Shown: in pieces, positions 2,493 through 63,569 of the stretch | Position numbering within the stretch: position 1 is the stretch's first letter | Layout of the letters: each line of letters opens with the position of its first letter | NCBI GenBank assembly: GCA_947632605.1 | Contig: CANRPX010000001.1 | Coordinates: 52,535-116,534 of the forward strand | Direction of reading: 5' to 3' | Source of the DNA: an uncultured Clostridia bacterium | GTDB taxonomy: Bacteria; Bacillota; Clostridia; TANB77; CAG-508 | DNA length: 64,000 nucleotides | Translations under genes and position numbers: made by a program | The notes under the pieces: generated by a model | The model's input: only the letters and a program-made list of their open reading frames with translations | Told to the model about the DNA's origin: nothing | The model's database searches: none

Positions 2493-2527
2493 AAAAGTGA
2501 ACTTAAATTTTTTTAAGTTCACTTTTT
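2492..2527. terminator. Bidirectional terminator between convergent genes
   Basis: A 16-bp stem (2492-2507 with 2512-2527) is flanked by A-runs and T-runs on both sides. It serves the desulfurase on + and the SPFH gene on -. Confidence 0.85.
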
Positions 2528-2546
2528 ATAATTATTTAAATATTAT

Positions 2547-3467
2547 TTATTCTGCTTTAGGTTTCTTTTGAGAATCTTTAACTACATCAGACATTGCTCC
2601 TAAAGAACTTAGAGCTTTTGTTGCTTCAAAAGGAATAAATATTTTATTTGCTTCACCTTTTGCAACTTCTTGTAAAGCTTCTAAAGATTTTAATTGAACT
2701 AATTTATCACTAGGATCTGATTTTTTAATTGCTTCATAAACCATATTTATTTCTTGAGCTTTAGCATCTGCTACTTGTTTAATTGCTTCTGCTTCACCAG
2801 TTGCTCTTCTAATTCTAGCTTCTCTATCTGCTTCAGCATCTAATATAGCAGCTTCTTTTCTACCTTCAGCAAGTGTAATTGCAGATTGTCTTTCACCTTC
2901 AGCTTCTAGAATTAAAGCTCTTTTATTTCTTTCTGCGTTCATTTGTTTTTCCATTGCATCTCTAATGTCAGCAGGTGGTGTGATATCTTTAATTTCAACT
3001 CTGTCTATTTTGCATCCCCAAGCATCTGTTGCTTCATCAAGTATTGCTCTTAATTTATCATTAATTATATCTCTTGAACTAAATGTTTCATCTAATTCCA
3101 TTTTACCAACAATATCACGAATTGTTGTTATAGATAAATATTCAATACCCTTTTTTAAACTTTGAATTTCATAAACAGCTTTTGCTGGATCTGTAATTTT
3201 ATAGAACACAACAGTATCAATAGTAATTGTAACGTTATCTGATGTAATAACAGCTTGTGGTGGAATATCCATAGTTTGTTGTTTTAAACTAACTACTGAA
3301 CGAACTTGATCTAAAAAAGGAACAATTATTGTAAGACCAGCTTCTGCAACTTTGTGAAATCTACCTAATCTTTCAATAATATAAACTTCTGATTGTTTAA
3401 CAATTTTAATTGTTTTGTAAGCTACAATACAAATGATGACAAATAATACTAATAAGAAAGCTCCCAT
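2547..3467 (-). CDS. SPFH/stomatin-family membrane protein (QmcA-like)
   Basis: A 306-aa prohibitin/stomatin-type membrane scaffold protein. One N-terminal membrane helix (about residues 2-20) is followed by the SPFH domain with Y-I-I-E-R-L-G-R-F-H and the stretch D-I-T-P-P-A-D-I-R. A long Glu/Ala-rich coiled coil with E-R-N-K-R-A and E-G-E-R-Q-S-A comes next. It starts 24 bp after the NfeD-like gene with a good AGGAGG site, so the two form an operon. NfeD-SPFH pairs are a recognised bacterial module thought to organise membrane microdomains or proteolysis. That role is inferred from the family. Confidence 0.9.
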   Translation of the reverse strand: MGAFLLVLFVIICIVAYKTIKIVKQSEVYIIERLGRFHKVAEAGLTIIVPFLDQVRSVVSLKQQTMDIPPQAVITSDNVTITIDTVVFYKITDPAKAVYEIQSLKKGIEYLSITTIRDIVGKMELDETFSSRDIINDKLRAILDEATDAWGCKIDRVEIKDITPPADIRDAMEKQMNAERNKRALILEAEGERQSAITLAEGRKEAAILDAEADREARIRRATGEAEAIKQVADAKAQEINMVYEAIKKSDPSDKLVQLKSLEALQEVAKGEANKIFIPFEATKALSSLGAMSDVVKDSQKKPKAE

Positions 3468-3491
3468 TATAATAAATCCTCCTAAATTTTT

Positions 3492-3920
3492 TTATACTAA
3501 GGGTTTAACTATTGCCTTAACACCCTCAATTTTTTCAACAATTATTTCTGTGTCTTTTGAAATATATGTATTATCAAGTGATTTAGCTGACCAAGTTTCT
3601 CCATCAACTTTTACTTGACCTTTAGAATTAATAGGATCAATATCTGTGATTACTTTTCCAACTTTCCCTTCTAGTGATGCGGAATTTGTTTTTACAAAAG
3701 AATCATTAGATGTAAGTTTATTTACAAATGGTTTTGTTGCAAATAATAATACTGTTGATGAAACTAAAAATATTGCAGACTGAATAACAATATTATCAAT
3801 AAAGAAACTTGAAATCATTGCAATAAAAGCTCCGACAGAAAACCAAAATACTAGAAAACCTAAATTAATGATTTCTATTACTAAAAAAATTCCTGAAAGG
3901 ACAAGCCATATTTTCCACAT
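3492..3920 (-). CDS. NfeD-family membrane protein
   Basis: About 142 aa. The open frame extends further upstream, but GGAGG lies 5 nt before the Met at 3918-3920 (M-W-K-I-W-L-V), so that start is chosen. Three or four closely spaced hydrophobic segments occupy roughly residues 1-65. A small C-terminal beta-barrel (OB-like) follows, with the motif L-E-G-K-V-G-K-V-I-T-D-I-D-P and K-V-D-G-E-T-W-S-A, typical of short NfeD proteins that lack the ClpP-like protease part. It is the promoter-proximal partner of the SPFH gene. Confidence 0.85.
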   Translation of the reverse strand: MWKIWLVLSGIFLVIEIINLGFLVFWFSVGAFIAMISSFFIDNIVIQSAIFLVSSTVLLFATKPFVNKLTSNDSFVKTNSASLEGKVGKVITDIDPINSKGQVKVDGETWSAKSLDNTYISKDTEIIVEKIEGVKAIVKPLV

Positions 3921-4131
3921 ATATACCTCCAATCTATTCAAGAAACAGAATAATAGAATTTTTTACAATAACATTATACTATATTTCTTTTAAAAAATAA
4001 ACTATTTTTTTAAATTTACTAAAAATATGTCAAAAAAAGTAGATTTTTTTAAAACCATATTATATAATTTCAAACATAGAACATAAAAACTAAAATGAAA
4101 AATCTAAACGAAAATATGAGAGGAAATAAGT

Positions 4132-47977: not shown

Positions 47978-48051
<74 letters not shown>

Positions 48052-48093
48052 ACAGATAATTTATTATCTGTATAATCCTTCTAACAATTATAT

Positions 48094-48167
<74 letters not shown>

Positions 48168-48197
48168 ACAAGTAATTATACTTGTACCACTTAAATT

Positions 48198-48237
48198 AGT
48201 CATTGTGCTAAAGTTATTTTAGTATGATGGCTTTTTT
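48198..48237 (+). terminator. Terminator of the tandem tRNA-Gly unit
   Basis: A 15-bp stem with several G-T wobbles (48198-48212 with 48218-48232) is followed by a T-run. Confidence 0.75.
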
Positions 48238-48249
48238 AGTTTTTATTCA

Positions 48250-48278
48250 TTGCAAAGAAAGAAAAAAATATGTATAAT
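48250..48278 (+). promoter_or_regulatory. Promoter of the third tRNA-Gly gene
   Basis: TTGCAA (48250-48255) and TATAAT (48273-48278), 17-bp spacer. Confidence 0.65.
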
Positions 48279-48291
48279 ATAAATATATGAT

Positions 48292-48365
<74 letters not shown>

Positions 48366-48367
48366 CA

Positions 48368-48393
48368 AAAGGCATTTTAGCCTTTATTTTTTT
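48368..48393. terminator. Terminator just inside the left end
   Basis: AAAGGC (48368-48373) pairs with GCCTTT (48380-48385), followed by a T-run. It now serves as terminator of the tRNA-Gly transcript. Confidence 0.75.
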
Positions 48394-48424
48394 GTTTCAA
48401 TGTGTCACTGTAAACCGCTAAAAA

Positions 48425-48536
48425 TGGGCATTTTATAAAAATAAAAGAGACAGATTAAAACACTTTAAAACGAAAAATTGTCAACAAAATTGTCAACAAT
48501 AAAAAACGTGTTGACAATTTGTTGACAAAATGCCCA
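48425..48536. repeat. Left-end arm-type repeats and enclosing inverted repeat
   Basis: TTGTCAACA occurs at 48478-48486 and 48490-48498, and its complement TGTTGACAA at 48509-48517 and 48520-48528, spaced 11-12 bp. A 10-bp inverted repeat (TGGGCATTTT at 48425-48434, AAAATGCCCA at 48527-48536) frames them. They are likely integrase or excisionase binding sites. Confidence 0.7.
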
Positions 48537-48723
48537 TGTAATCTTACAGTATTAAGAGATACAAAGGTCAGTATTTTTAATGCTTTACATAAATAAGTTT
48601 AAAAGTGGAAATTTAGTGGTGAATTTTTTAAAAAAGTTTTGACATTAATCTATTAAAGTATTGATATATAAATAAAAAATGACATAGGGAAAAGCAGTAT
48701 TCAAAAAGAATACTGCTTAAATA
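48537..48723. other. Noncoding stretch before the integrase 3' end
   Basis: AT-rich. A hairpin (about 48695-48719, AGCAGTATTC pairing with GAATACTGCT) lies right after the integrase stop and could terminate the minus-strand operon. Nothing else was seen. Confidence 0.5.
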
Positions 48724-49935
48724 TTATCTTGCTAAATCATTATTGTCTAATAATTCATAATTGGTTGTATTTAATTCTCTTGCTTTATTGAATATATCAT
48801 TATTTAAATAATATTCATGTAGTTTTTCCATTTCTTTTTCTTTGTATTTATTTAAAACAGAAGTATAAGTGTTTAATGTTATATTTATGTCAGTATGACC
48901 AAGTAATCTTTGAAGTGCAACAGCTCTCATACCAGATTCAATACAACGAGTACCATAGGTGTGTCTTAAAGTGTGTGTAGAAACTGGATGTGTAATATTA
49001 ACTTTTTTAGCAATACCTTTTAGTTGATTGTTAATAGTAGAGTGTAAAACTAGTTTTTGATTTGGTGTTAAAAATAACATGTTGTCTTTATTGTTTTTAG
49101 AAATTTCTAATTGTTCCATTATATAAGGTAATATAAAATCAGGTATTGGTAAATCTCTTTGCCCAGCAAAAGTTTTTGTAGTTTTTCCTACACATACTTT
49201 ATCGTTTTTATCAGTTGTTAATGTTCTTCGTACTTTTAGTATTTTTTTATTTAAATCAAAATCACTAGATTGTAAAGCAAGAGTTTCGCCAACACGAAGT
49301 CCCATATATAGTTGAATTAGAAATACATTTCTGTAAGGTACATCTTGAACATCAACATTTAGTAAATAATCAGTTAGTCTTTGTTGTTCATCAACTTCTA
49401 AAGCATTGCAAATTTTATCTTCCTTTTTACTTCTAGGTTTTATCGTTTCATACATAGGGTTTTCATGTATATAACCTTTATTTAGAGCATATTCAAAAGC
49501 ACTTTTAAATTGAAAATAACTTTTTTGAATTGATGAATTACTGTAATTTTCAGTTAATGAATTAAAATAATTTTGTAATTCATCTGTTGTTATTTCATTT
49601 ATGTTTTTATTTGCTAAATATGTCTTTTCGATAGTCCTTATAGTGTTCATACTTCTTGCATAAGCTCTATCGGTTATTAAATTAGAATCAACTTTTTTCT
49701 GCAATAACATTTTTATAAGTTTAATTAAAGGTATTCCATTGTTTTGAATAAATATAGAACTATTTTTTTGCAAGTTTATATCTTTTAAAAATTCTTTTGC
49801 CGATTCTTCTGTTGAAAATGATTTTCTTATTCTTTTGGGTTTAGCAGTATTTAAATCTTGTATAATATAAGAAGCTATCCAGTTTTTTCTATCTTTATTA
49901 TAAAAAACACTGCCTTGAGCTTGTTTATTTGCCAT
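48724..49935 (-). CDS. Tyrosine recombinase (site-specific integrase, Tn916-like)
   Basis: 403 aa. A longer open frame exists, but AGGAGGTG 7 nt before the Met at 49933-49935 fixes the start and avoids overlap with the upstream gene. The N-terminal AP2-like arm-binding domain (about 1-60) begins Q-G-S-V-F-Y-N-K-D-R-K-N-W. A SAM-like core-binding domain follows, then the catalytic domain with R214 (G-L-R-V-G-E), H321 and R324 (H-T-L-R-H), H347 (L-G-H-T-D) and nucleophile Y357. It catalyses integration at the tRNA-Gly and excision. Confidence 0.95.
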   Translation of the reverse strand: MANKQAQGSVFYNKDRKNWIASYIIQDLNTAKPKRIRKSFSTEESAKEFLKDINLQKNSSIFIQNNGIPLIKLIKMLLQKKVDSNLITDRAYARSMNTIRTIEKTYLANKNINEITTDELQNYFNSLTENYSNSSIQKSYFQFKSAFEYALNKGYIHENPMYETIKPRSKKEDKICNALEVDEQQRLTDYLLNVDVQDVPYRNVFLIQLYMGLRVGETLALQSSDFDLNKKILKVRRTLTTDKNDKVCVGKTTKTFAGQRDLPIPDFILPYIMEQLEISKNNKDNMLFLTPNQKLVLHSTINNQLKGIAKKVNITHPVSTHTLRHTYGTRCIESGMRAVALQRLLGHTDINITLNTYTSVLNKYKEKEMEKLHEYYLNNDIFNKARELNTTNYELLDNNDLAR

Positions 49936-49946
49936 AAACACACCTC

Positions 49947-50222
49947 CTAAACTCGTCTTTGCATTTTCCAAATAGTGTAGGCAAGAAGTGTTATGTGCCA
50001 AGATTGACCTAGATTTACAGACGGAAAATCATTTCTTTTAAAAATTTTATAACTTGCATTTTTACCAATGTTTAAATCTTTTGCAACATCTTTTACTGTT
50101 AATGTAGCAAATGGATTTTCTAATTTATCTATAGCAACTTTTGCAAGAACTTCTTCAAATGAGATTTTTTCTTTAGTATCAATTAATTCTATTTCTAAAT
50201 TATCTTGTTTTAATTCTTTCAT
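49947..50222 (-). CDS. Excisionase-like helix-turn-helix protein
   Basis: 91 aa. The C-terminal half has a helix-turn-helix pattern L-T-V-K-D-V-A-K-D-L-N-I-G-K-N-A-S-Y-K (about 42-60), then F-P-S-V-N-L-G. This matches small MerR/excisionase-type DNA-binding proteins found directly upstream of integrases. Its stop TAG is part of the ribosome binding site of the integrase, so the two are coupled. It overlaps the relaxase 3' end by 23 bp. It most likely directs excision. Confidence 0.75.
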   Translation of the reverse strand: MKELKQDNLEIELIDTKEKISFEEVLAKVAIDKLENPFATLTVKDVAKDLNIGKNASYKIFKRNDFPSVNLGQSWHITLLAYTIWKMQRRV

Positions 50223-51189
50223 CTTTATCTTTCTCCTTTATAATATAATCTTTTACTAATTTTTTAAGTCTGTTAAGTGGAAAATCAAATAGAATACTTA
50301 CATATTCAAAAGTTTTATTCAAATAGTGTTTTAATAAGTTATTAGTGTTTTTTATTTTTGAATATTCTTGTTTTAAATTATTGTAGTTATATTCTAAATT
50401 TTCTATTTTTTCTAAAGTAGTATCATTTATGACTTTAATTCTAGTATATTGTTTAGCTAGGGTATTGAATTTTTTGATAACTCTACGATAATCAGTTTGT
50501 AATTCATTAAAATTATTAGTGTTAATTTCTTGTTCATATTTTATTGATTTAGTTTCAAATTGTTGTACTTCATGATTAGTTATTACTTTTAACTGCTTTA
50601 TCGGAATATGTTCATTTTCGTCGTTTTTACCACGTTCTAAATTAAAACCAGACCTAGTCATATATTTGTAAAAATTATCTTGTAAATTTTTATAACTATT
50701 TTTTCCTTTCCAAAATTCAGAACAAGAAAGTTTATCTATTGAATTTCCATTTTTATCTTTAGTATGAACAACAGGGAGAAATACTAAATGCATGTGTGGT
50801 GTTGTTTCATCCATGTGGACTTTTGCAGATAAAATAAATTGCTCTCCTAAATTTTTGTAGTTTGCAACAAAAGTATAGGCAGTTTTAAAAAATCTTATTG
50901 TTTCATCAAAACCTATTTCTTCAAAAAAATCTTTATCAGAAGTAATGATATATTCACAAGCAATATTACTTGTCTTTTTAATTTGACCTTTTAATCGATA
51001 ATCATTTCTTAATTGATTAAATCTTTTTGAATATGGGGTAGTACAGGACTTAATTGAAAAATTGTATATACCTTTACTTTTATCAATGTCTTTGTTTGAA
51101 TAATTAGTATTTCTCCTTTCATTGTGTCTATAAGCTAAATTTAGAGTATTTAACTTATGCTTTGTGTTTCTAATTATTGCAAAACTCAT
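50200..51189 (-). CDS. mobV: MobV-type relaxase (Mob/Pre family)
   Basis: 329 aa. It nicks the element's oriT and leads the strand into a recipient. The N-terminus M-S-F-A-I-I-R-N-T-K-H-K and the three-histidine metal motif H125-M-D-E-T-T-P-H132-M-H134 are typical of MobV. The last 100 residues are a coiled coil. The length is short compared with many MobV proteins (about 400 or more). AAGGAG precedes the ATG. It is first of the mob-xis-int operon. Confidence 0.9.
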   Translation of the reverse strand: MSFAIIRNTKHKLNTLNLAYRHNERRNTNYSNKDIDKSKGIYNFSIKSCTTPYSKRFNQLRNDYRLKGQIKKTSNIACEYIITSDKDFFEEIGFDETIRFFKTAYTFVANYKNLGEQFILSAKVHMDETTPHMHLVFLPVVHTKDKNGNSIDKLSCSEFWKGKNSYKNLQDNFYKYMTRSGFNLERGKNDENEHIPIKQLKVITNHEVQQFETKSIKYEQEINTNNFNELQTDYRRVIKKFNTLAKQYTRIKVINDTTLEKIENLEYNYNNLKQEYSKIKNTNNLLKHYLNKTFEYVSILFDFPLNRLKKLVKDYIIKEKDKDERIKTR

Positions 51190-51906: not shown

Positions 51907-54624
51907 ATGAAAGATATTTATGAAAAAAATATTAAAGAATTAGAAAATATTTTATTGCAAGATAAGTTAATAGGTAATAGACTTTTACTGTATTATGATG
52001 ATAATGAATTTTTTAATTATGTTAATGAAAAAGCAGAAGATCTATTATTAAATTCAATAAATACACCTTTGAATGAAAAAAAGAATTATTATATAGTTAT
52101 TATATCATTGTCTTTTATATCACTAAAACTTTATGATGGTAGTCTATGGGAGCATGTTAGAAGTATCTATAAAAATCTTTATAGTAAGTATAGTGAGCAA
52201 AAGATTTATAGAAAAATACTAGATATTTTAAATTTATTTAGCAATGAAGATAAAAAAAGGTATATTAATTTTCCAATATCTAATGCAATAGTACCTGAAA
52301 AGTATTTAGATAAATATTTTGAATTTATGTTTGATATTTACAAAATAAATTTTCAAAAAAGTTTGCCTGATAATATTAATGAGGAATTAAAATTTGTTTT
52401 TGAAGGATTGACAGATAGTATTTCCGGAGAAAAAGATGATTTAGAGATTGCTGTAACCAATAAAACATATAAACTAATAAGAACAACACTTAATATTATA
52501 AAAAATAAAAAGAATATAGATTCACTAATTGAATTATCTTCAAATATTTTAAAATATATTGATTCATATTATTGGAATGATCCTACAGTTGATTATATAT
52601 CTACATCTTTTTATGAAGAAGCTTTAAAAAAATGGAAAGAGCAAAATAGTGAAGAAATTGATAAAATTAGAAATATAAATGACTTTGGTAATAAAGAAAA
52701 TAGATCTGCATGGAAGTTAAAATTTAAACTAATAGAGAATGAAATTTATTTATTTACACCTGTACATAGAATACCCAAAGACTATGATCCAACTGATATT
52801 AATATTTTTGTATATAACGGAGAAGAGCCATTGGCATTAGAAGAAAGACCTATTGTCGAAGAATCAATTGGTTATTATATTGTAAAACCTCAAAATGTAA
52901 AAATAGATAAACCAATTGGAAAACTAACATATGTTTTATCTGCTGGGAAAAATGAGATATATAATAGTAAAGATATTTTATATAGAAACTATATAGCATT
53001 TGACAATAAAGGAAATGAATTAAAAAATAACACAGAATATGAAGGAGATCTAATTATTGCAAGTGATGTGATTAATAATTCTGAAATTTATATTATAAAG
53101 AGAACTGAAGGATATATTTTAGGAGAACTAATTGCTAACATAGGTGATTGTGTTAAGATAAATAATAATTATTTGAACTTAAGTAAAAGAATAAAAAATC
53201 CTTTTATAGAAGGTAATCAATTAGAAAAAGTAATTGCTTTAAATGAAAATAAAAAAATAAAAGTGTTTAGAAATGTCGAAAATATACTATTTGATACAAA
53301 TGAACAATTAAGTAATATAATGATTGTTATTGATGGAAAAAGATATAGAATTGAAGATCTTAAGAATTATATAGAAAATAAAAATACTTATAATTTAGTT
53401 TCAGTAAATATAAGTGATCTAGAAGAAGGATATCATTTTATAAAAATAAAGAATATTAGTGATGAAAAAAATATAGCTCTATTTGAATTTATCGTAGATA
53501 AAAAATTTGATTTTGAATGTGAAAAGGTAGAAGATAAAAAATTTGTAATATTATTAGATTCTTCTTTTAGATTATATGATAATAAAAAAAATGAAATTTC
53601 AGAAGTGGTTATAGATATAAAGGAAGAGATAGAATCAAAAGTATTTTTTTATATAAATGAAAAAAAGTTTTTTTATATAATACCTTTATCAATTCCTCTT
53701 TATAAAATAGATGATACAAATTGGTGTGAAATTAACGAATTTATTTGGGGAAAAGATATAAAGTTTTATTCTAGACTTATGTTGAGAAATATAGATTTTG
53801 ACAAAATAATATTAGAAGACTTACAAAATAATGAATTAAAATGTTTAAATATAAGTGGAGAAGTTATTAATATAGATTTTTTAAGAAAATATATAGAAGA
53901 TTTTGATAGATTAAAATTAAAATTTTTAAAACAAGAAATAGAATTGGTAAGCATTGATATATTAAATGCGTGCGAATATGATAAAAATAATAGTTTTATC
54001 CAATATGATGAAGATAATAATATTTTGAAAATAAAGACTGTTTATATAGGAAAAGACAAAATGACATTGAAAATAATTAATACTCATACAAGTGAAATTG
54101 AATTTACTAAAGAATTAAAAGATAATATTACAGAAAATTTAATTGAAGGATTACATGCTTGTTGGGAATATAATATTATTTTTGAAAATATATCTTCTGA
54201 TTTATTTTCATTACCTAAACAAATATATAATGAGATAGTAACATTATATAATACTAATAATTTACAAAGAAAGTATTATAGTATTAACAAAGTTTATTAC
54301 GGCTATCCTATAGATAATTTAAAAGATTTTGAACTAAAAAATACATTTATATGGTTAAATAGTAAAATTGGTGATAAGAGATATGAAGCCGAGATATATC
54401 AAATGGGAAAGAATCATATTAGATTATATAAAACAAATATAAATCCTGTAATAATGGAAGTCATATCTAATCCAAAGGATAATACAATTGAAGCAATGAT
54501 TGTTGATAAGAACGATGATGGATTATTGCTAGATAAAGAAAAAAGAACTGTATATGATGGAAATAAAAATACTTTGAATGATATTTACATATATGAATTA
54601 TTATTAAATAGAAAGAAGAATTAA
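51907..54624 (+). CDS. Large protein of unknown family, first gene of the putative defense operon
   Basis: 905 aa. It has no Walker motif, metal motif, signal peptide or membrane helix that I can see. Residues 1-270 are helical (Y-Y-D-D-N-E-F and repeated Leu/Ile spacing). From about 290 onward the protein is rich in alternating polar/hydrophobic residues, suggesting several beta-sandwich repeats (for example I-Y-L-F-T-P-V-H-R-I-P). It ends 2 bp before the DUF1998-type helicase gene. DruH of Druantia type III occupies the same position next to its helicase, but I cannot show homology. AAAGGATT precedes the ATG. Confidence 0.7.
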   Translation: MKDIYEKNIKELENILLQDKLIGNRLLLYYDDNEFFNYVNEKAEDLLLNSINTPLNEKKNYYIVIISLSFISLKLYDGSLWEHVRSIYKNLYSKYSEQKIYRKILDILNLFSNEDKKRYINFPISNAIVPEKYLDKYFEFMFDIYKINFQKSLPDNINEELKFVFEGLTDSISGEKDDLEIAVTNKTYKLIRTTLNIIKNKKNIDSLIELSSNILKYIDSYYWNDPTVDYISTSFYEEALKKWKEQNSEEIDKIRNINDFGNKENRSAWKLKFKLIENEIYLFTPVHRIPKDYDPTDINIFVYNGEEPLALEERPIVEESIGYYIVKPQNVKIDKPIGKLTYVLSAGKNEIYNSKDILYRNYIAFDNKGNELKNNTEYEGDLIIASDVINNSEIYIIKRTEGYILGELIANIGDCVKINNNYLNLSKRIKNPFIEGNQLEKVIALNENKKIKVFRNVENILFDTNEQLSNIMIVIDGKRYRIEDLKNYIENKNTYNLVSVNISDLEEGYHFIKIKNISDEKNIALFEFIVDKKFDFECEKVEDKKFVILLDSSFRLYDNKKNEISEVVIDIKEEIESKVFFYINEKKFFYIIPLSIPLYKIDDTNWCEINEFIWGKDIKFYSRLMLRNIDFDKIILEDLQNNELKCLNISGEVINIDFLRKYIEDFDRLKLKFLKQEIELVSIDILNACEYDKNNSFIQYDEDNNILKIKTVYIGKDKMTLKIINTHTSEIEFTKELKDNITENLIEGLHACWEYNIIFENISSDLFSLPKQIYNEIVTLYNTNNLQRKYYSINKVYYGYPIDNLKDFELKNTFIWLNSKIGDKRYEAEIYQMGKNHIRLYKTNINPVIMEVISNPKDNTIEAMIVDKNDDGLLLDKEKRTVYDGNKNTLNDIYIYELLLNRKKN

Positions 54625-54626
54625 TA

Positions 54627-57600
54627 ATGAAAAAAATGAATCCAATAGAACAATCAAGTTATATAGAAAATAAATTTAGAGAATATATTCAATCAACATT
54701 TCAAATTGAAGATGAAATATATGAAAGAGAATTTAAAGAGGAACTGAAAAAAGCAGAAATATGCAAAGGTCCATTTATAAGTACAACATTACCTTTTAAA
54801 AGAGGACACTCAATTAGAGAATTAATCGAGCAAGGCTTAATTAATAAAAATTTTTTGAAGTTATCTGATATTGATTTTGATAGAAAACTTTATTTACACC
54901 AAGAAAAAACTTTAGAGTTAATAGAAAAAGGGCATAATGCAGTAATAACAACAGGAACCGGTTCTGGAAAAACAGAAAGTTTTTTATATCCAATTTTGAA
55001 TCATATTTTGAAAGAAATTGATAATGGAAAAGGTGGAAGTGGCATCGTATCTTTATTTTTATATCCCATGAATGCACTAGTTAATGATCAAATCGATAGA
55101 GTGAGGAACATATTAAAAGAATATCCAGAGATTACTTTTGGCTTTTTTACAGGAGAAACAGAGGAAAAGGATGTCCCAAACTTAAGAGAGAGATTATCTG
55201 AAAAATATGGTATAAAAGTTCCTCAAAATGAAATCGTATCAAGGGAAGAAATAAGAAAAAACACTCCTAATTTGTTATTTACTAATTATTCTATGTTAGA
55301 ACACTTATTAATAAGACCTACTGATTTTAATATATTCAATGAGTCAAATATTAAAAGATGGCAATTTGTAGTTTTAGATGAAGCTCATACATATACAGGT
55401 GCATTAGGAATTGAATTGGCACTTCTATTAAGAAGAGTAAAAGGAATTGCCAAAAGGAATCCACAGTTTTTGTTAACAAGTGCTACTTTAGGTGATGAGA
55501 ATAAAGATATTGATAAAATAATAAATTTTGCTGAAAGTCTTACGACAAGCAAATTCGAAAAAGAGGATATTGTCTTCTCAAAAAGAGAAAAATTTTTTGC
55601 AGATTGTAGTTATAGAATTAATCCAGAAGAGTATTCTAAAATTGTTGATTCTATCAAAAAAAATGATTTAAAAACAGTTGTTAAAAATATAAATTGCAAT
55701 ATAGATATTAATCAACAAGATGATGAAATATTATTTGACTTATTAATAAATGATAAAAATGTACTTGAATTGTTTAATATTTTAAATTCAGGAAGTATAA
55801 AAACTTTTAAAGATGTATATTTTAAATTTTGTAATATAATAAATATTACAGAACAACAATTAGTAGATTTTATTTTTATTATTTCAAAAGCTAACAAAAA
55901 AGGAGCAACATTATTTGATTCAAAATATCATACTTTTATTAGAACTTTGGATGGAGCTTTTATTTCAATTGGTCAAAATAAAAAGATGAAATTGACAAAT
56001 TGTAAAACTATAGACGATATGGTTGCATTTGAAATAGGTCTTTGTAAATATTGTAATGAAATTTATATTATTGGTAAAAAATATCAGGATAAAAATGGTT
56101 TATGGCATTTACACCAAAATTCAGATGTTGATATTGATGAAAATTATGGAGATATAGAGGAAAATACTAAAGTTGATTATTTTTTATTAAAAAATAATGC
56201 CAAAGTTAATGATAAATATATAACAGAAGTCGAAGAAGAAGTAGTATGTAGTAAATGTGGAGTTATTTATAATAGTGCAGACTTAAATGCGAGAAGTTGT
56301 AAATGTGGAGAACAATATAAAGTAGAATTATTGAGAGTAAAAAATGATAAAGAAGTAAAAAATAATCTAACCACATGTCCTTGTTGTACTAGAAGTTCAA
56401 GAAACAGTATAGGTATTGTTTCAGGATTTCATTTAAGTAAAGATAGTGCTACAGCATTGTTATCTCAAATTTTATATGAAACTTTGGATTATAAAGAAAA
56501 TAAAAATAGTAATTTTAAAATTGTAACTGATTTTTGGAATTCCAATAATGATCAAACAAAAATAAAAAAAGATGATAAAAAAGTTAAGCAATTTATAGCT
56601 TTTTCGGATAGCAGACAACAAGCAAGTTTTTTTGCAACTTTTTACAATTATACTCATAAACGTTTTCTTAGAAAAAGAATTATGTGGGAAGAATTAAAAA
56701 ATAATGAACATGAGTCAATTTCATTTACTAATTTATTAAATAGAGTGAAAAATAATATATATGATAATAAATTATTTGGTGTGAAAGATGATATAGAAGA
56801 TGCTGAAAAAGAAGCTTGGATTACTTTGATGTCTGAATTACTTAATATAGATGGTAATTATACTGCTGAAGGACTAGGAATTTTTTATTTTAAATTAAAT
56901 CAAGAAGATATAAAAAGAAGGATAAAAGAATATGGATTAAGTGAAGCTTTAAATCAATTTTTAAATAAATATGATTTAAAAGAAAATGAATTTTTTAATA
57001 TGCTTCAAATAATTTGTCAAATTTTTAGAAATACAGCATCACTAAACTATAATGAATCTAATCTTGATATGAGCATTCGAAAAGAAGAATTTGGCTTTAG
57101 AAGATTTGATAATTTTGTCGTTGAAAAAAGAGCGGATTTAAAGGATGATAGTGATGAAAATCAGAAAAAAGGTGAAAACAGAACAAGCTTTCTTCCTGTT
57201 AAAGAAAATATAGTGACTAGAAATTCCAATTATGTTGAAAAAGTTTTAAAATGCTCTAAAGAAAAAAGAAATGAGTTTTTAAGTGATACATTTAAATTAT
57301 GTAAGACAGTATTATTTAAAGAAATTGAAGGAAATTATGAAAAATTATATCAAATAGAAGCAAAAAGATTTGAGATTGATAGTTATATAAAAAATAAATT
57401 TTATTTTTGCCCAAAATGTAAAAAAATTACACCATATAATGTAAGAAATGTATGTCCAACTAAAAAATGTGATGGAAAATTAGAAAAATGTAATTTAGAA
57501 GAACTTTTTAAAAATAATTATTATAGAAAAGAATACATGAATAAAACTATTGAGAATATTGTTGTTAAAGAGCACACTGCACAAATTGATAGAGATAAAG

Positions 57601-59702
57601 GAAGGCAATATCAAAATGAGTTTAAAGATCAAAAAATAAATGTATTAAGTTGTTCTACCACTTTTGAAATGGGTATTGATATAGGAAAATTAGAAAATGT
57701 TTTTTTAAGAAATGTACCACCTACACCTGCAAATTATGTGCAAAGAGCTGGTCGTGCTGGCAGAAGCAAAGATTCTTCAGCGTTTGTTCTAACATTTTGT
57801 GGAGCTTCATCACATGATTTTACATATTTTAATGATCCTTCAAAAATGATTTCTGGAATTATAACTCCACCTAATTTTAAAGTTACAAATGAAAAAATTA
57901 TTATTAGACATATTACGGCATCTGCTTTTGGATTTTTCTTTAGATTATATCCTGAATATTTTGAAAATGTAGAAGCTTTAATTTGTAATAATGGAATAAA
58001 AAAATTTCAGGAATATTTGGAAAGTAAGCCGGATGAACTTAAAGATTATATCGACAATAATGTTTTAGATAATAATTCTAGAATGATATATGGAAATTTT
58101 AAATGGTTAAATAATTTGATTGATGAAAATGGTATTTTAAATAATTATTACAACTATAGAAAACAAAGATTAGATGAACTAGAAGATGCAATGAAAAAAG
58201 CAAGTAATAATTCTAATTTTTATAATGCAAAATATTATCAAGATGAAATAAATAAAGAAAAAAATGAAAATGTTATAGAAAGCTTATCTGAATTTTGTGT
58301 TATTCCTAAATATGGTTTTCCAGTAGATGTCGTTGATTTGAAAGTCTATGAGAAAAACGGTAGGCTAAATTCAAATTATAATTTATCAAGAGATTTATCT
58401 ATAGCTATTTCTGAATATGCACCGGATTCTGAAATAATTGTTGATGATAAAAAATATACTTCAAGATATATATTAAAACCTAGAAATGTTTCTGACTTAA
58501 CAAAATATTGGTATTTTATTTGTAGCAATTGTGAAAGATTAAATAAAGACATAATTAAAGAGCATTTATCCAAATGTAAGTATTGTGGTGATGAATTTAA
58601 CACCGCTAATATTCTTAATTATTATGTCGATCCAATATATGGTTTTGCTACAGATATTAAAAATAAAGAATCAACTACCAAAAAACCTAAAAAGACATAT
58701 TCTGGTGAATTTAAATATATTGGAGAAGGTATTAGTAACAATGATAGATTTTCATTTAATGATTTTGTTTTTATTGAATCATCAAAAGATGATAAGTTAT
58801 TAATTATGAATACGAATCCATTTTACAGATGTAAATTATGTGGATATACAAAACTAATAAAAAATAAAACTGGTATGTATGAAAAAGAAAAACATAAGAA
58901 TCATATGCAATATGATTGCGAAAATGATATTTTAGAAAAGACATCATTAGGTCATGAATTTAAAACTGATGTTGTGAAAATAATAATAATGAATTTAACA
59001 GAAAAAAAACATGCATTATCAGCATTATATGCTATTTTAGAAGGCATTAGTAATGCATTTGATATAGAAAGAAGAGATATAAATGGTATTACATATAAAA
59101 ATGAAGATGGCATTTATGAAATAATTATATTTGATAACGTTCCAGGAGGAGCAGGACATGTTAAAAGAATTTTGGAAAGAGAAAATTTAAAACTTGCTTT
59201 TTATAGTGCTTATAATAAAGTAAATAGTAATTGTTGTGATGAAGAAACTTCATGTTATAATTGTTTAAGAAATTATAGTAATCAAAGAATTCATAATGAA
59301 TTAAAACGTCGATATGCAAAAGAAGTACTAAAGGATGTAATTAATAGTTTTAATATTGAAGATATGAATAAAAAACAAGTAGAATTAAATATTTTAGTTA
59401 ATGATTCATATTTTTTAGATGAGTATAATGTATGGGAAGAAATACAGTATTTTATAGAAGGTATAAAGATTGATGAATTTATAAGTAGAGAAATTAGAAT
59501 ACCAGATTATGCAACTAGTGTAATAAAAACGGAAAATGATACTATTTCTGCATTAGCAATATGGCAAAATGAAAAAATAGTTTTATTTGATAATGGTATT
59601 TCAGATGATAAATTAAATCAATACAATTCTTATGGTTGGACATGCTATAGGATTAATGATATAAATTATGATAATATAAAAAAGATAATGATCGGAGCAT
59701 AA
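54627..59702 (+). CDS. Giant DEAH-box helicase with DUF1998-like C-terminal region (DruE/DrmA-DrmB type)
   Basis: 1691 aa. Superfamily 2 helicase: Walker A G-T-G-S-G-K-T at about 110-116, DEAH at 251-254, S-A-T at 285-287, and motif VI Q-R-A-G-R-A-G-R at 1039-1046. The two RecA cores are split by an insert with zinc-ribbon cysteines (about 470-590 and 925-955). More ribbons follow near 1300 and 1402. The DUF1998/MZB-like end (about 1447-1570) has N-V-P-G-G-A-G-H and C-C-D-E-E-T-S-C-Y-N-C. Such fused helicase-DUF1998 proteins drive Druantia, and split ones drive DISARM. It is the core of the operon. Confidence 0.9.
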   Translation: MKKMNPIEQSSYIENKFREYIQSTFQIEDEIYEREFKEELKKAEICKGPFISTTLPFKRGHSIRELIEQGLINKNFLKLSDIDFDRKLYLHQEKTLELIEKGHNAVITTGTGSGKTESFLYPILNHILKEIDNGKGGSGIVSLFLYPMNALVNDQIDRVRNILKEYPEITFGFFTGETEEKDVPNLRERLSEKYGIKVPQNEIVSREEIRKNTPNLLFTNYSMLEHLLIRPTDFNIFNESNIKRWQFVVLDEAHTYTGALGIELALLLRRVKGIAKRNPQFLLTSATLGDENKDIDKIINFAESLTTSKFEKEDIVFSKREKFFADCSYRINPEEYSKIVDSIKKNDLKTVVKNINCNIDINQQDDEILFDLLINDKNVLELFNILNSGSIKTFKDVYFKFCNIINITEQQLVDFIFIISKANKKGATLFDSKYHTFIRTLDGAFISIGQNKKMKLTNCKTIDDMVAFEIGLCKYCNEIYIIGKKYQDKNGLWHLHQNSDVDIDENYGDIEENTKVDYFLLKNNAKVNDKYITEVEEEVVCSKCGVIYNSADLNARSCKCGEQYKVELLRVKNDKEVKNNLTTCPCCTRSSRNSIGIVSGFHLSKDSATALLSQILYETLDYKENKNSNFKIVTDFWNSNNDQTKIKKDDKKVKQFIAFSDSRQQASFFATFYNYTHKRFLRKRIMWEELKNNEHESISFTNLLNRVKNNIYDNKLFGVKDDIEDAEKEAWITLMSELLNIDGNYTAEGLGIFYFKLNQEDIKRRIKEYGLSEALNQFLNKYDLKENEFFNMLQIICQIFRNTASLNYNESNLDMSIRKEEFGFRRFDNFVVEKRADLKDDSDENQKKGENRTSFLPVKENIVTRNSNYVEKVLKCSKEKRNEFLSDTFKLCKTVLFKEIEGNYEKLYQIEAKRFEIDSYIKNKFYFCPKCKKITPYNVRNVCPTKKCDGKLEKCNLEELFKNNYYRKEYMNKTIENIVVKEHTAQIDRDKGRQYQNEFKDQKINVLSCSTTFEMGIDIGKLENVFLRNVPPTPANYVQRAGRAGRSKDSSAFVLTFCGASSHDFTYFNDPSKMISGIITPPNFKVTNEKIIIRHITASAFGFFFRLYPEYFENVEALICNNGIKKFQEYLESKPDELKDYIDNNVLDNNSRMIYGNFKWLNNLIDENGILNNYYNYRKQRLDELEDAMKKASNNSNFYNAKYYQDEINKEKNENVIESLSEFCVIPKYGFPVDVVDLKVYEKNGRLNSNYNLSRDLSIAISEYAPDSEIIVDDKKYTSRYILKPRNVSDLTKYWYFICSNCERLNKDIIKEHLSKCKYCGDEFNTANILNYYVDPIYGFATDIKNKESTTKKPKKTYSGEFKYIGEGISNNDRFSFNDFVFIESSKDDKLLIMNTNPFYRCKLCGYTKLIKNKTGMYEKEKHKNHMQYDCENDILEKTSLGHEFKTDVVKIIIMNLTEKKHALSALYAILEGISNAFDIERRDINGITYKNEDGIYEIIIFDNVPGGAGHVKRILERENLKLAFYSAYNKVNSNCCDEETSCYNCLRNYSNQRIHNELKRRYAKEVLKDVINSFNIEDMNKKQVELNILVNDSYFLDEYNVWEEIQYFIEGIKIDEFISREIRIPDYATSVIKTENDTISALAIWQNEKIVLFDNGISDDKLNQYNSYGWTCYRINDINYDNIKKIMIGA

Positions 59703-61394
59703 ATGGCTAGAATAATTCCAGAAAAAGTTTATTATTTTAATAAAAGCTATGGAGAAAAATTAGTATATGAATCTCTTAAAAGTTTATCTGATGATTATAC
59801 AATTTTTTATTCTGTACTATGGCAACAAAAAGAAAGAAGAAATGAAAATATAGTATGGGGAGAATCTGATTTTACAGTTTTTCATCCTAAAAAAGGTATA
59901 TTAGTTATTGAAGTAAAATCTGGTGGAATTTCATATAAAGATGGAAAGTGGTGGCAAACTAGATTAGATAATAATGAAATAAAAAGCATGAAAGATCCAT
60001 TAATTCAAGCTAATAAAAGTAAATATAGATTTATTAGTGTAATAAATGAAGTGCTTGAGATAAATCAGTTTTGTAATATTGAATCTGTTGTGTGGTTTCC
60101 ATCAATTGTAGATAATATTAAAAACATTAAATTGCCTTTATCATATAACAAAGACATAATTTTTACTCAAGAGGATTTAAAAAATCCGGAAAATGCGATA
60201 AATAAAGCATATCAATATTATAATGCAGAAAAGAAAACAAGGCTAGATAGTAAAGCAGTGCAAAAAATAATATCTGTATTAGCACCAGAATTTGATTTAA
60301 TTAAGAAGATTGATACAGAAAAGCAAGAAAAAAACTATGCATTTTTGAGATTAACTAGAGAACAGAGTACATTATTAGATTATTTAATTGAACAAAAGAA
60401 AGTTTGTATTCAAGGGTCGGCTGGAACAGGAAAAACTTTGATAGCAATTGAAGAAGCTAAAAGACTGGCACTAGATGGAAGAAAAGTATTATTTTTATGT
60501 TTTAATCATTTTTTATATAAATATTTAAAAAGTAATTTTGAAAATAATAATATAGATTTTTATAATTTACATACACTACTGTTTAAATACTCAGGTAGAT
60601 ATGATATAAAAAATGAAGAAATTGTAACTTTGTTAAAAAAATATGAAAATAAATTTGATTATAATGATGTAATTATAGATGAAGCCCAAGATTTTAATGA
60701 TGATGTTATAGAATTTTATTCAAGAAAAACGGAAAAATGTAATGGAAAATTTTTTATATTTTATGATAGAAAACAATTATTATTTCAAAAGGAAAAATCA
60801 AACTGGATTGAAAACGCAGAATGTAAATTAGTATTATCTAAAAATTGCAGAAATACCCAACAAATAGCAATCACGTCCAATAGTATTATTGATGCAAATA
60901 CATATTTAAATGATAATGCTATTCAAGGAGAAATGCCTACATTAAATTTTGTTAATAACAGAGAAGAAGCAATTAATAAAATTAAAGAGTTAATAGATAA
61001 ATATAAATCAGAAGGTTTTGAAAATAAAGACATAATAATTTTGACACTTGAAACAGAAGATAGATCTATTTTAAATGCTTATACTTATATAAATAATAAT
61101 AAAATTGTATCTGAAATAGATGGAGAAAATATATTATTTACTACATCAAAAAAATTTAAAGGATTAGAATCAGATGCTGTTATTATTATAGATATTAAAC
61201 GAGATGATTTTATAGATGAAGAAAAACGCCGAAACTTATATGTAGCATCTTCTAGAGCTAGACAAAAATTAGGATTGGTTTTTGAAAGTAATGATGAGGA
61301 TATAGATTTTTTAGCAAAAGAAATCAAAGAAATTAATAATTCAAATGGTATAGCGAAAATTGCAATGAAGTTAAAAGTTAAACCTATAAAATAA
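59703..61394 (+). CDS. NERD nuclease domain fused to SF1 (UvrD-like) helicase
   Basis: 563 aa starting at the base after the DUF1998 helicase stop. The N-terminal NERD domain has restriction-like nuclease residues E23, D56 (G-E-S-D-F-T-V), E70 and K72 (V-I-E-V-K-S-G). The helicase part has Walker A Q-G-S-A-G-T-G-K-T at 237-245, D-E-A-Q at 326-329, K-F-K-G-L-E-S-D and Y-V-A-S-S-R-A. It is short for a UvrD-type helicase. It probably cleaves and unwinds foreign DNA together with the two upstream proteins. The exact family is not assigned. Confidence 0.88.
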   Translation: MARIIPEKVYYFNKSYGEKLVYESLKSLSDDYTIFYSVLWQQKERRNENIVWGESDFTVFHPKKGILVIEVKSGGISYKDGKWWQTRLDNNEIKSMKDPLIQANKSKYRFISVINEVLEINQFCNIESVVWFPSIVDNIKNIKLPLSYNKDIIFTQEDLKNPENAINKAYQYYNAEKKTRLDSKAVQKIISVLAPEFDLIKKIDTEKQEKNYAFLRLTREQSTLLDYLIEQKKVCIQGSAGTGKTLIAIEEAKRLALDGRKVLFLCFNHFLYKYLKSNFENNNIDFYNLHTLLFKYSGRYDIKNEEIVTLLKKYENKFDYNDVIIDEAQDFNDDVIEFYSRKTEKCNGKFFIFYDRKQLLFQKEKSNWIENAECKLVLSKNCRNTQQIAITSNSIIDANTYLNDNAIQGEMPTLNFVNNREEAINKIKELIDKYKSEGFENKDIIILTLETEDRSILNAYTYINNNKIVSEIDGENILFTTSKKFKGLESDAVIIIDIKRDDFIDEEKRRNLYVASSRARQKLGLVFESNDEDIDFLAKEIKEINNSNGIAKIAMKLKVKPIK

Positions 61395-61431
61395 TTTTTA
61401 TAAATTACAATTTTTGAAAGGTTGAAAATAT

Positions 61432-62199
61432 ATGGATTTAGCATTAAATTATAGTTTAATAGAAAATTATAAAAATAATTCTCAAAAAGCTAGAATTTTA
61501 ACAGAAGATTGGGTAAAAAGAAATGCTTTTTGTCCGATCTGCGGTAAAGCAAATATAAATAAATTTGAAAATAATAAACCAGTATCAGATTTTTATTGTG
61601 AAAGATGTAAAGAAATTTTTGAATTAAAAAGTAAAAATGGAAACTTTAGTAATATTATTAACGATGGTGCTTATTCAACTATGATTGAAAGAATTACAAG
61701 TAACACGAATCCAGATTTCTTTTTTCTTACTTATAATATAAAAAAATATATTGTAGAGAATTTTCTAATAATACCTAAATATTTTTTTACCCCAAACATT
61801 ATATTAAAAAGAAAACCATTAGCTCCAACAGCTAAAAGAGCAGGTTGGATTGGGTGCAATATTAATTTAAGTTCAATTCCAAATGATGGAAAAATATTTA
61901 TTATAAAACAATGTAGAGAAATTCCAAAAAAAGATGTTATAAGCAAAATGCAAAAGAATATCTTTTTGAAAAATTCAGAAGTAAGTTTAAGAGGATGGAT
62001 TTTAGACATAATGAGATGTATTGATGAAATTAAAAAAGAAGAATTTACTTTATTAGATATATATAAATTTGAAGAATATTTACATATATTACATCCAAAC
62101 AACAATAATATTCAAGCTAAAATAAGGCAACAACTACAAATTTTAAGAGATAATAATTATATTGAATTTTTAGGAAAGGGAAAATATAGAAAGGTTTAA
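61432..62199 (+). CDS. dpnI: DpnI-family restriction endonuclease (cuts methylated GATC)
   Basis: 255 aa, alignable with pneumococcal DpnI along its whole length (for example N-S-Q-K-A-R-I-L-T-E-D-W-V and A-P-T-A-K-R-A-G-W-I-G-C-N). Zinc-binding cysteines are at 34, 37, 56 and 59. The catalytic D53, E64 and K66 are all present. The m6A-pocket tryptophan is at 139, and the C-terminal winged helix ends I-R-Q-Q-L-Q-I-L-R-D-N-N. The enzyme cuts GATC only when adenine is methylated and needs no partner methylase. It has its own AAAGG site 38 bp after the NERD gene. Confidence 0.95.
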   Translation: MDLALNYSLIENYKNNSQKARILTEDWVKRNAFCPICGKANINKFENNKPVSDFYCERCKEIFELKSKNGNFSNIINDGAYSTMIERITSNTNPDFFFLTYNIKKYIVENFLIIPKYFFTPNIILKRKPLAPTAKRAGWIGCNINLSSIPNDGKIFIIKQCREIPKKDVISKMQKNIFLKNSEVSLRGWILDIMRCIDEIKKEEFTLLDIYKFEEYLHILHPNNNNIQAKIRQQLQILRDNNYIEFLGKGKYRKV

Positions 62200-62204
62200 A
62201 AATC

Positions 62205-62444
62205 ATGAATAAATATATTTTTTTGACAGACGAGGGGTATACATATTTGCCTAATTCAGTAAGTACAGAACCTGATTGTGAGAATTCACAAGTATTAGGA
62301 ATAGTTGAAGCTGATTCAGAAGATAATGCTTATAAAAAATTATTAAAAGAAAATGTTTATTTATTAAATAAGCAATTTAGTCAAATTTATTGCTACAAAA
62401 TTGAAAAAAATTTTGAAAAGAAGTATTTTTATATAGAAGACTGA
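62205..62444 (+). CDS. Small protein of unknown function next to dpnI
   Basis: 79 aa, beginning M-N-K-Y-I-F-L-T-D-E-G-Y-T-Y, followed by a short alpha/beta unit with E-A-D-S-E-D-N-A-Y-K-K-L-L-K-E-N. It starts 5 bp after dpnI, so it is in the same operon. Similar small proteins beginning Y-I-F-L-T-D-E-G-Y-T occur in accessory regions. No function is known. A link with dpnD is not supported by sequence. Confidence 0.65.
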   Translation: MNKYIFLTDEGYTYLPNSVSTEPDCENSQVLGIVEADSEDNAYKKLLKENVYLLNKQFSQIYCYKIEKNFEKKYFYIED

Positions 62445-62508
62445 ATGTATGAAAATTTAAAATTATACAAATTGATAAATAAGCATATAATATTATAATG
62501 TTAAATTA

Positions 62509-62537
62509 TTGACATTTTTGAAATTTTACTTTATAAT
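62509..62537 (+). promoter_or_regulatory. Promoter of the type III toxin-antitoxin system
   Basis: Perfect consensus TTGACA (62509-62514) and TATAAT (62532-62537) with a 17-bp spacer, about 15 bp before the RNA repeats. Confidence 0.88.
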
Positions 62538-62551
62538 TAATTTAACAATGA

Positions 62552-62657
62552 AAATATGTGTCGCTCTTGGGTGGTGCGACTAATAAATTATCCCAATCGA
62601 TAAATATGTGTCGCTATTGGGTGGTGCGACTAAACAAAATATCCCAAATGAAAATAT
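62552..62657 (+). ncRNA. Type III antitoxin RNA: two 50-nt pseudoknot repeats
   Basis: Two full repeats with an exact period of 50 nt (62552-62601 and 62602-62651) are followed by a short third start. Each folds as an H-type pseudoknot: GTCGC pairs with GCGAC (62560-62564/62576-62580; 62610-62614/62626-62630), and TTGGG in that loop pairs with CCCAA downstream (62567-62571/62592-62596; 62617-62621/62643-62647). Linkers differ while stems are kept. This is the antitoxin layout of ToxIN/CptIN systems. Confidence 0.88.
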
Positions 62658-62658
62658 G

Positions 62659-62694
62659 GCCTTCCTTTGAAATACAAGGAGGGCTTTGCATTTT
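62659..62694 (+). terminator. Leaky terminator between antitoxin RNA and toxin gene
   Basis: A 9-bp stem (62659-62667 with 62676-62684, one G-T) is followed by a weak T-rich tail. This position is standard in type III systems, where it keeps antitoxin in excess. Confidence 0.82.
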
Positions 62695-62708
62695 AATAGG
62701 AGAAATAT

Positions 62709-63188
62709 ATGGAAATAAAAGAAGGATATGTATATCATATAAAAGATGAATATTTTGAAGTAGTAAAAGATGAAACATTAATGAAAAATCATGAAAATGG
62801 TAAAGCGAGACCAACATATTTTTGTATAAAAGATAAAACATCAGATATTCTTTGGTTTATTCCTATGAGTAGTAAAGTGGAAAAATATAAAAAATTAAGA
62901 GATAAAAAGATTACTAAATATGGAAATTGTGATTCTATTTTAATTAAAGAATTTTTAGGACAAGAGTCTGTATTTCTTTTACAAAATATGTTTCCAACTA
63001 TCGAAAAATATGTTGATCATGTACATATAGTTAATGGAGTAGAAGCTAAAGTTATTAGTAGGATTGAAAAAGAATTAGAAATAAGTTTTAATAAACTAAT
63101 GATTTTGATAAAACAAGGAAAAAAAGTTGTGTTTACGGATATAGATAAAGATTTAAAGATAATGAAAGATGAATTAGAAAGAAAATAA
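62709..63188 (+). CDS. Type III toxin, CptN/ToxN-like endoribonuclease
   Basis: 159 aa. It has the fold-defining pattern of the family: G-Y-V-Y-H-I-K-D-E-Y-F near the start, A-R-P-T-Y-F-C-I-K-D, then W-F-I-P-M-S-S-K-V-E-K-Y-K (about 55-67) and a helical C-terminus. These proteins cut A-rich RNA and cut their own antitoxin transcript into pseudoknot units that inhibit them. AGGAG precedes the ATG. The position directly after the repeats and terminator is the strongest evidence. CptN is the closest subfamily by repeat number and length. Confidence 0.85.
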   Translation: MEIKEGYVYHIKDEYFEVVKDETLMKNHENGKARPTYFCIKDKTSDILWFIPMSSKVEKYKKLRDKKITKYGNCDSILIKEFLGQESVFLLQNMFPTIEKYVDHVHIVNGVEAKVISRIEKELEISFNKLMILIKQGKKVVFTDIDKDLKIMKDELERK

Positions 63189-63215
63189 ATATATTTTATT
63201 GATAAAGGAGAGATT

Positions 63216-63569
63216 ATGGAATTTGAGAATTTAAAAAATTTTTTTCAAAAAGAATATGGAAAAGAAATTACTGACCAAGAATTTTTAGAAAAATTAAAAA
63301 TAATAATAGATGACATTGATTTGCTAGTAGATATGGCAGAAGTAATAAGAAAACAAATTAAAAGTATTTTAATGAGAGTTGAATATTCGATAGAAAATCA
63401 TAAAAATTGTAGAATAACTATAGAAGAAAGAAAAATAGTAATAAGCGCACTTAAAAAATTAAGTAAGATAGTAGTTGATAACAAAGATGCAAAAAGATTT
63501 ATAGAAGTTTTGGCTGAATATTTTTTAGAATGTTTGAATTTGATTCAAAAAAATAATAAAAATTTATAA
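63216..63569 (+). CDS. Unknown helical protein at the right end of the element
   Basis: 117 aa and nearly all helix, with no motif I recognise. AAAGGAG precedes the ATG, 27 bp after the toxin gene. The middle is basic (E-E-R-K-I-V-I-S-A-L-K-K-L). It could be a regulator of the toxin unit or an unrelated element gene. Confidence 0.6.
   Translation: MEFENLKNFFQKEYGKEITDQEFLEKLKIIIDDIDLLVDMAEVIRKQIKSILMRVEYSIENHKNCRITIEERKIVISALKKLSKIVVDNKDAKRFIEVLAEYFLECLNLIQKNNKNL

Follow-up and report, generated by a model that had tools for sequence, protein, structure and literature searches.

Our analysis suggests that the DNA considered here, a window of 64,000 nt from an uncultured Clostridia bacterium, probably encodes a three-gene, Druantia-III-like anti-phage operon in which a DruE-like helicase recruits, through its C-terminal domain (CTD), a NERD-SF1 protein as a dedicated effector motor. 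The genes follow the order 905-aa protein, DruE-like protein and NERD-SF1 with intergenic gaps of 2 nt and 0 nt, the stop codon of the 1691-aa gene directly abutting the first base of NERD-SF1 (59702/59703). What is new here is an extra CTD of ~110 aa that is tied to the DruE proteins preceding NERD-SF1. A search of mainly open-access literature turned up no paper that connects NERD-SF1 to Druantia or DISARM; priority is therefore not firm. The features of the operon are as follows.

51907–54624, + strand: first gene, 905 aa, in the DruH position; a divergent family without a known-domain match
54627–59702, + strand: DruE-like YprA-family SF2 helicase, 1691 aa (PADLOC DruE1 571 bits, DruE3 510 bits; PDB 9tu7, E 2e-75)
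54897–55505, + strand: RecA1/DEAD domain of the DruE-like protein, aa 91–293 (PF00270, 84.3 bits)
59028–59267, + strand: MZB/DUF1998 zinc domain of the DruE-like protein, aa 1468–1547 (PF09369, 42.7 bits, cut-off 24.2)
59331–59693, + strand: CTD of the DruE-like protein, aa 1569–1689 (A4 model, 71 bits, the window CTD being in the training set)
59703–61394, + strand: NERD nuclease–SF1 helicase gene, the subject of this finding; a single ORF of 563 aa
59745–60101, + strand: NERD domain, aa 15–133 (PF08378, 44.6 bits, cut-off 22.1)
59754, 59868, 59910 and 59916, + strand: NERD catalytic residues E18, D56, E70 and K72, respectively (homologue alignment)
60411–60437, + strand: Walker A, QGSAGTGKT, aa 237–245 (G238, G241, G243 and K244 in 90/90 homologues)
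60678–60689, + strand: Walker B/DEAQ, aa 326–329 (D326, E327 and Q329 in 90/90 homologues)
61137–61280, + strand: UvrD_C_2 helicase C-terminal motifs, aa 479–526 (PF13538, 38.1 bits, cut-off 27.4)

The 563-aa protein combines a NERD nuclease with a UvrD-like SF1 helicase, as the initial annotation had proposed from the letters alone: the Pfam matches to NERD (44.6 bits) and UvrD_C_2 (38.1 bits) exceed the curated cut-offs, and the Walker A and B motifs of the SF1 motor lie at the residues it had named. The nuclease site had been read as E23, D56, E70 and K72. In an alignment of 90 homologues the last three residues, together with E54, were each present in 88/88 rows having the domain (Q102 in 89/89), whereas E23 was rejected as a catalytic residue, as position 23 is glutamate in just 27/90 homologues and the conserved N-terminal acid of NERD is instead E18 (88/88). 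Homologues in the large scan were retrieved by the pattern [IV][VI]DE[GA]QDF, which presets the Walker B D, E and Q residues for 80 loci; conservation of the NERD catalytic residues is independent of this search pattern. Far from being lost in most homologues, the catalytic residues of the nuclease and the Walker motifs are preserved in virtually all of them. The NERD domain is a predicted PD-(D/E)xK nuclease with intact catalytic residues, and at the level of sequence the identification of NERD-SF1 is well beyond chance given the whole-domain profile matches, the invariant residues and synteny across several phyla. In PADLOC the protein matched RTasNERD-Hel (258 bits) and C3a187 (77 bits) over its full length, with no match to Nhi or HamA. 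Viral contigs scanned with P0001 and P0003 as single-sequence queries yielded no match, nor did plasmids scanned with P0003.

The DruE-like protein carries the motifs GTGSGKT at residue 110, DEAH at 251 and QRAGRAGR at 1039. It aligns to the DruE3 model only as far as position 1684 (of 2055), leaving the C-terminal ~370 aa of the model unmatched, and Pfam found no PLD or Vsr match in it; the absence of PLD rests on Pfam and PADLOC because the HxK(x)4D regular expression was uninformative, being negative also in the DruE of a DruH/DruE locus. The 905-aa protein had no match in PADLOC, Pfam or PDB, and could not be aligned by hhalign with a protein that the DruH model of PADLOC recognises; its identification as DruH is unsupported by either approach. 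Its AlphaFold2 model is poor (pLDDT 51, pTM 0.26), helical over residues 1–261 and all-beta thereafter, a layout reminiscent of DruH as it has been described (PMC13192584); given the low confidence of the model, this likeness proves nothing. A profile built from this protein and its relatives placed homologues ahead of other DruE-like genes, both with and without NERD-SF1; judged by position only, the protein is a probable infection sensor. At loci encoding DruE-like proteins and lacking NERD, proteins in the DruH position reach ~1640–1660 aa (L151, L152, L156), and the one scanned (L151) weakly matched the SMC-like defence models LmuB and JetC.

The surroundings of the operon contain further features. 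Upstream, at 47978–51189, lie three tRNA-Gly(tcc) genes, a tyrosine integrase (48724–50001, − strand) and a MobV relaxase (50200–51189, − strand; NF041497, 125 bits); the defence genes resemble the cargo of a mobilisable element that integrated close to tRNA-Gly. Downstream, 37 nt after NERD-SF1, lies a DpnI-like Dam-replacing endonuclease (61432–62199; PADLOC mREase_II 364 bits, Pfam DpnI 270 bits), and a CptIN-type type III toxin gene follows at 62709–63188 (NF047359, 163 bits) within an element spanning 62550–63188. Upstream of the toxin gene are 2.2 copies of a 50-nt repeat (62550–62658) and a hairpin; the repeat is the probable antitoxin RNA, and Rfam listed no such RNA here at the gathering threshold. 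Neither the DpnI-like gene nor the toxin gene was counted among the parts of the system.

DruE-like proteins encoded before NERD-SF1 run ~110 residues longer at the C-terminus than those that are not. We trained a DruE-only CTD model on eleven such tails, with all other matches held out, and this model recovered the CTD at the C-termini of DrmB proteins (L033, L038 and L020, with a weak match of 16 bits in L032) as well as in a DruE4-like protein (L034), a further DruE (L157) and a RecQ-like protein (L027); every held-out CTD protein was encoded directly 5′ of an SF1 gene. The CTD of one additional locus, L028, was assigned by alignment. A survey blind to gene context, which took in 698 genomes for the CTD (399 for DruE), found it in 5/399 genomes of the phylum of the window and in 1/299 of a Vibrio-centred phylum. 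In the former, the window itself, G035, G640 and G622 carry NERD-SF1, while G619 encodes an ArmC-like protein of 2138 aa followed by a 696-aa GajB-like UvrD protein (C3a187 121 bits, GajB 114 bits). All of these CTDs lie directly before an SF1-type gene; the exception is the Vibrio-centred genome G781, where the position of ArmD, directly after an ArmC-like protein of 2110 aa, is taken by a 711-aa gene. An E. coli plasmid encodes an ArmC with the same tail, a match that is weak when taken alone (A4 model, 10.6–14.8 bits; out of 1987 ORFs it ranks next below the stronger matches). No CTD was found on the methyltransferase that precedes a RelE-UvrD-type gene in Pseudomonas avellanae (L194). From these sequence matches, the CTD and the SF1 gene appear to form one interchangeable module present in at least five kinds of defence system.

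For the fold of the CTD we used a homologue from Lachnospiraceae (L035; 126 aa, 15 alignment rows), for which AlphaFold2 gave a model with pLDDT 84.5 and pTM 0.76 and the order helix-helix-strand-strand-strand-helix-strand-helix. Foldseek returned no match to this model at E ≤ 0.001 (best E 0.4), the weak top matches including AbaSI and PvuRts1I, and Pfam gave a single weak match, of one CTD sequence to an inactive restriction-endonuclease family (0.013). Identity across families is about 13–30%; the alignment contains no conserved D, E or K column and no catalytic motif, and the near-invariant positions are one P and one W. Bell et al. described inactivated Vsr domains in ArmC and in the DruE of types I and II (PMC12458937). 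Taken with the modelled secondary-structure order and the pattern W..K.ALF...GW, this makes an inactive Vsr-like nuclease domain the likely identity of the CTD.

The arrangement in the window recurs widely. The order of a ~900–1200-aa protein, a DruE-like protein of ~1670–1780 aa and NERD-SF1 was also found in L019, L021, L030, L035, L037, L039, L040, L043, L084, L140 and L157, with hosts that include Butyrivibrio (L030), Lachnospiraceae (L035 and L040), Bacilli (L037), Mycoplasmatota (L039), Ruminococcus (L043) and Slackia (L084). Decayed forms occur as a truncated copy (L041) and a broken copy (L025). Plasmid 2 of Mycoplasmopsis arginini NCTC10129 holds a fragmented DruE-NERD-SF1 remnant at 1–4081 (L005), in which the DruE piece is 47% identical to that of the window and a 63-aa piece of the CTD is still recognisable. 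Beyond Druantia-like loci, NERD-SF1 stands at the end of DrmA-DrmB operons (L020, L032, L033, L038 and others), of a Druantia IV-type operon (L034; DruE4 1504 bits, DruL 84 bits) and with a RecQ-like gene pair (L027; C3a193 539 bits). Across homologous CTD-linked loci the spacing between the DruE-like and NERD-SF1 genes is about −8 to +5 nt, which bears out the direct coupling to the DUF1998 helicase that had been noted for the window.

Within the 399 genomes of the window's phylum, 36 DruE-like loci had enough downstream sequence to be scored: four carried both the CTD and NERD-SF1, none the CTD only, none NERD only, and 32 neither (Fisher p 1.7e-5, an inexact value given that the rows are related). 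As 32/36 loci do without it, NERD-SF1 is, by this gene census, an add-on to DruE-like systems and not a core part. One may postulate on this basis that NERD-SF1 is a self-contained defence, one gene for a nuclease-helicase that operates much as Nhi does, and that its place beside a two-gene Druantia-like system in a defence island is incidental: the two-gene core is apparently self-sufficient in those 32 loci, and NERD-SF1 is in many cases encoded without an SF2 gene upstream. We regard this scenario as quite unlikely, however, since near-zero gene spacing holds at every CTD-linked locus and the CTD and NERD-SF1 are distributed jointly. A two-motor complex, as the initial annotation had envisaged, would be the most economical reading of the fact that NERD-SF1 and the helicase CTD are present or absent together.

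On a tree of the DruE core, estimated with the CTD columns left out, the joint trait of CTD and NERD-SF1 changes five times, three of which are forced by well-supported branches, and a reduced set yielded four joint changes; a single clade for the trait was rejected (AU p 6e-35, for a group named after the data had been seen). The CTD and NERD-SF1 changed in the same direction in 3/3 independent pairs on well-supported branches, a number too small for a sign test to reach 0.05. In a FastTree phylogeny of NERD-SF1, 19 CTD-linked rows fall in one supported cluster of 22, the other three being one decayed locus and two without a same-strand upstream gene, and partners switch inside this cluster between DruE, DrmB, DruE4 and RecQ-like proteins. 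CTD distances across 12 DruE-linked loci track those of NERD-SF1 (partial r 0.71 given the core) more closely than those of the core (0.43).

The main rival to docking is that the CTD and NERD-SF1 were swapped between operons as one linked DNA segment, in which case no docking would take place and the SF1 protein would act alone. As the CTD-coding 3′ end of one gene adjoins the SF1 gene, co-transfer would produce an identical pattern of joint presence and of correlated divergence. The contiguity of the CTD and the SF1 start codon (gaps of about −8 to +5 nt), the partner switches within the NERD-SF1 cluster, the occurrence of NERD-SF1 alone or with other partners, and related NERD/UvrD models in other contexts (RTasNERD-Hel, C3a187) all fit this explanation. 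We nevertheless consider it somewhat unlikely. The CTD is retained in frame in at least four protein families at ~13–30% identity, a divergence over which a mere passenger should have decayed; in several DruE lineages the CTD and NERD-SF1 were lost or gained together; and ArmC retains the CTD though its SF1 neighbour has another N-terminal domain. That the CTD has a function is favoured by its in-frame preservation as the terminal domain of four or more protein families, alongside two types of SF1 effector.

The CTD is not universal and is not required for every NERD-SF1, because NERD-SF1 also follows DrmB-like or ArmC-like proteins without a recognisable CTD (L008, L042, L058, L072, L077, L085 and L096) and, in L087, lies in reversed order upstream of a CTD-less DruE-like gene. 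Several other contexts were observed. Four loci (L042, L058, L067 and L072) encode CTD-less YprA proteins of ~2000–2100 aa with NERD-SF1 next to them or close by, the last three also having two ~1000-aa genes on the opposite strand; these are possibly relatives of ARMADA I. A protein of ~1570–1620 aa without a match to any helicase model used here directly precedes NERD-SF1 in L063, L066, L090 and L103. In Chloroflexota (L045, L046 and L053) NERD-SF1 is followed by conserved-looking large genes of ~1230, 920 and 1130 aa. NERD-SF1 is convergent with a ~565-aa gene and a DrmA-like gene of ~1020–1035 aa in L049, L062, L071, L073 and L079, which share these neighbours on the opposite strand and have no CTD.

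The initial annotation had further suggested that NERD-SF1 could supply the effector nuclease that the other two proteins lack. This is supported for the DruE-like protein, which has no PLD or Vsr match, is short of the C-terminal ~370 aa of DruE3 and ends in a CTD without a catalytic motif. For the 905-aa protein the lack of a nuclease is unproven, because its fold is without assignment and canonical DruH, which occupies the same position, has nuclease activity (PMC13192584). One may accordingly propose that the 905-aa protein is the main nuclease, a role that DruH may have in canonical Druantia III, and NERD-SF1 a regulator or processing factor that, for example, removes bound proteins or trims ends for the DruE-like helicase. 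The nuclease activity of E. coli Druantia III DruH is dimer-dependent (PMC13192584), and PADLOC, Pfam and a poor AlphaFold2 model assign no fold to the 905-aa protein; PADLOC and Pfam found no nuclease signature in it, however, and the invariance of the NERD catalytic residues (88/88) argues that cleavage is under selection. We therefore judge this proposal unlikely.

Under the reading that we favour, a NERD-SF1 motor recruited by the CTD, we infer that protection against phage could arise through an order of events such as the following. The 905-aa protein would sense infection, and the DruE-like SF2 platform may then load on 3′-tailed or replicating phage DNA, as its E. coli relative DruE loads on 3′-tailed DNA in a system where DruH is the likely sensor (PMC13192584). 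The catalytically dead, nuclease-like CTD would hold the SF1 protein on this platform. With the platform engaged, the motor of the SF1 protein would translocate along the exposed single strand, and its NERD domain would then cut the DNA. In E. coli ARMADA II, defence requires the Walker A lysine of the SF1 protein (PMC12458937). The CTD and the SF1 protein may together be an interchangeable module for several SF2-based defence systems. A broader proposal, to which we give roughly even chances, is that the CTD acts as a portable docking code: one dead domain on different SF2 platforms (Druantia III-like, Druantia IV, DISARM, a CRISPR-III-associated RecQ-like helicase and ARMADA II) would recruit a shared SF1 motor whose N-terminal effector, a NERD DNase or a RelE-like RNase, is exchangeable. 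If true, defence systems that have been catalogued separately would share one exchangeable effector stage joined by a small domain, and this domain would be open to deletion, swapping and mutation as a direct test of how helicase-based defence recruits a nuclease. The CTD would also be a sequence tag for finding more systems of the same design, and would bear on the mode of action, in the module-bearing subset, of the Druantia-III-like DruE proteins that Bell et al. noted to have no nuclease domain.

Among known systems, the operon most resembles Druantia III and III-like (DruH-DruE) loci, in which a DruE-like YprA helicase comes second, after a protein of ~900–1600 aa, and matches the PADLOC DruE1 and DruE3 models. 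A YprA-family DruE helicase with MZB/DUF1998 (571 bits to DruE1; MZB 42.7 bits) fits Druantia of any type; of the two marks of type III, a DruH partner and a pair of C-terminal PLD domains, neither was found by PADLOC, Pfam or hhalign, and the operon adds NERD-SF1 as a third gene and a CTD. Bell et al. report that III-like DruE proteins are mostly without a nuclease domain, and in their main text NERD is mentioned for TALON only (PMC12458937). ARMADA II (ArmC-ArmD) shares a YprA helicase with a homologous CTD followed by an SF1 helicase with an N-terminal effector domain, and the window has the same trait of a dead, likely Vsr-like CTD on a YprA protein before an SF1 gene. The domain ahead of the SF1 core of ArmD is RelE-like according to Bell et al. 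(PMC12458937), an RNase where the window has NERD, and ArmC also has an active Vsr nuclease; no ArmA, ArmB or RelE-SF1 ArmD was found among the genes of 51907–63569. DISARM (DrmE-DrmA-DrmB) is alike in that the DrmB of L020 and L033 (DrmA and DrmB by PADLOC) carries the CTD and precedes the same NERD-SF1, but the helicase and DUF1998 parts are in separate genes and the first gene differs. Druantia IV (DruL-DruE4), as in L034, likewise has a DruE4 with the CTD followed by NERD-SF1, on a distant DruE branch and with DruL present. TALON unites a YprA helicase and a NERD nuclease in one operon but has TPR-CSD and TBP genes (PMC12458937), domains that Pfam did not find in the neighbouring proteins of the window. 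RTasNERD-Hel (DRT) and C3a187 (type III CRISPR set) of PADLOC share the NERD-helicase architecture over its full length; PADLOC and Pfam found no reverse transcriptase among the genes of 51907–63569, and no CRISPR gene was recognised in the operon. Nhi, a one-protein nuclease-helicase (PMC12904381), and Hachiman also pair a nuclease with a helicase acting on phage DNA, although with other partner genes. Finally, the recurrently acquired nuclease-protease pairs (PMC12799240) illustrate the same concept, a single effector module that several unrelated immune systems have taken up; the proteins are others, and the module described here extends to a domain at the tail of the host protein.
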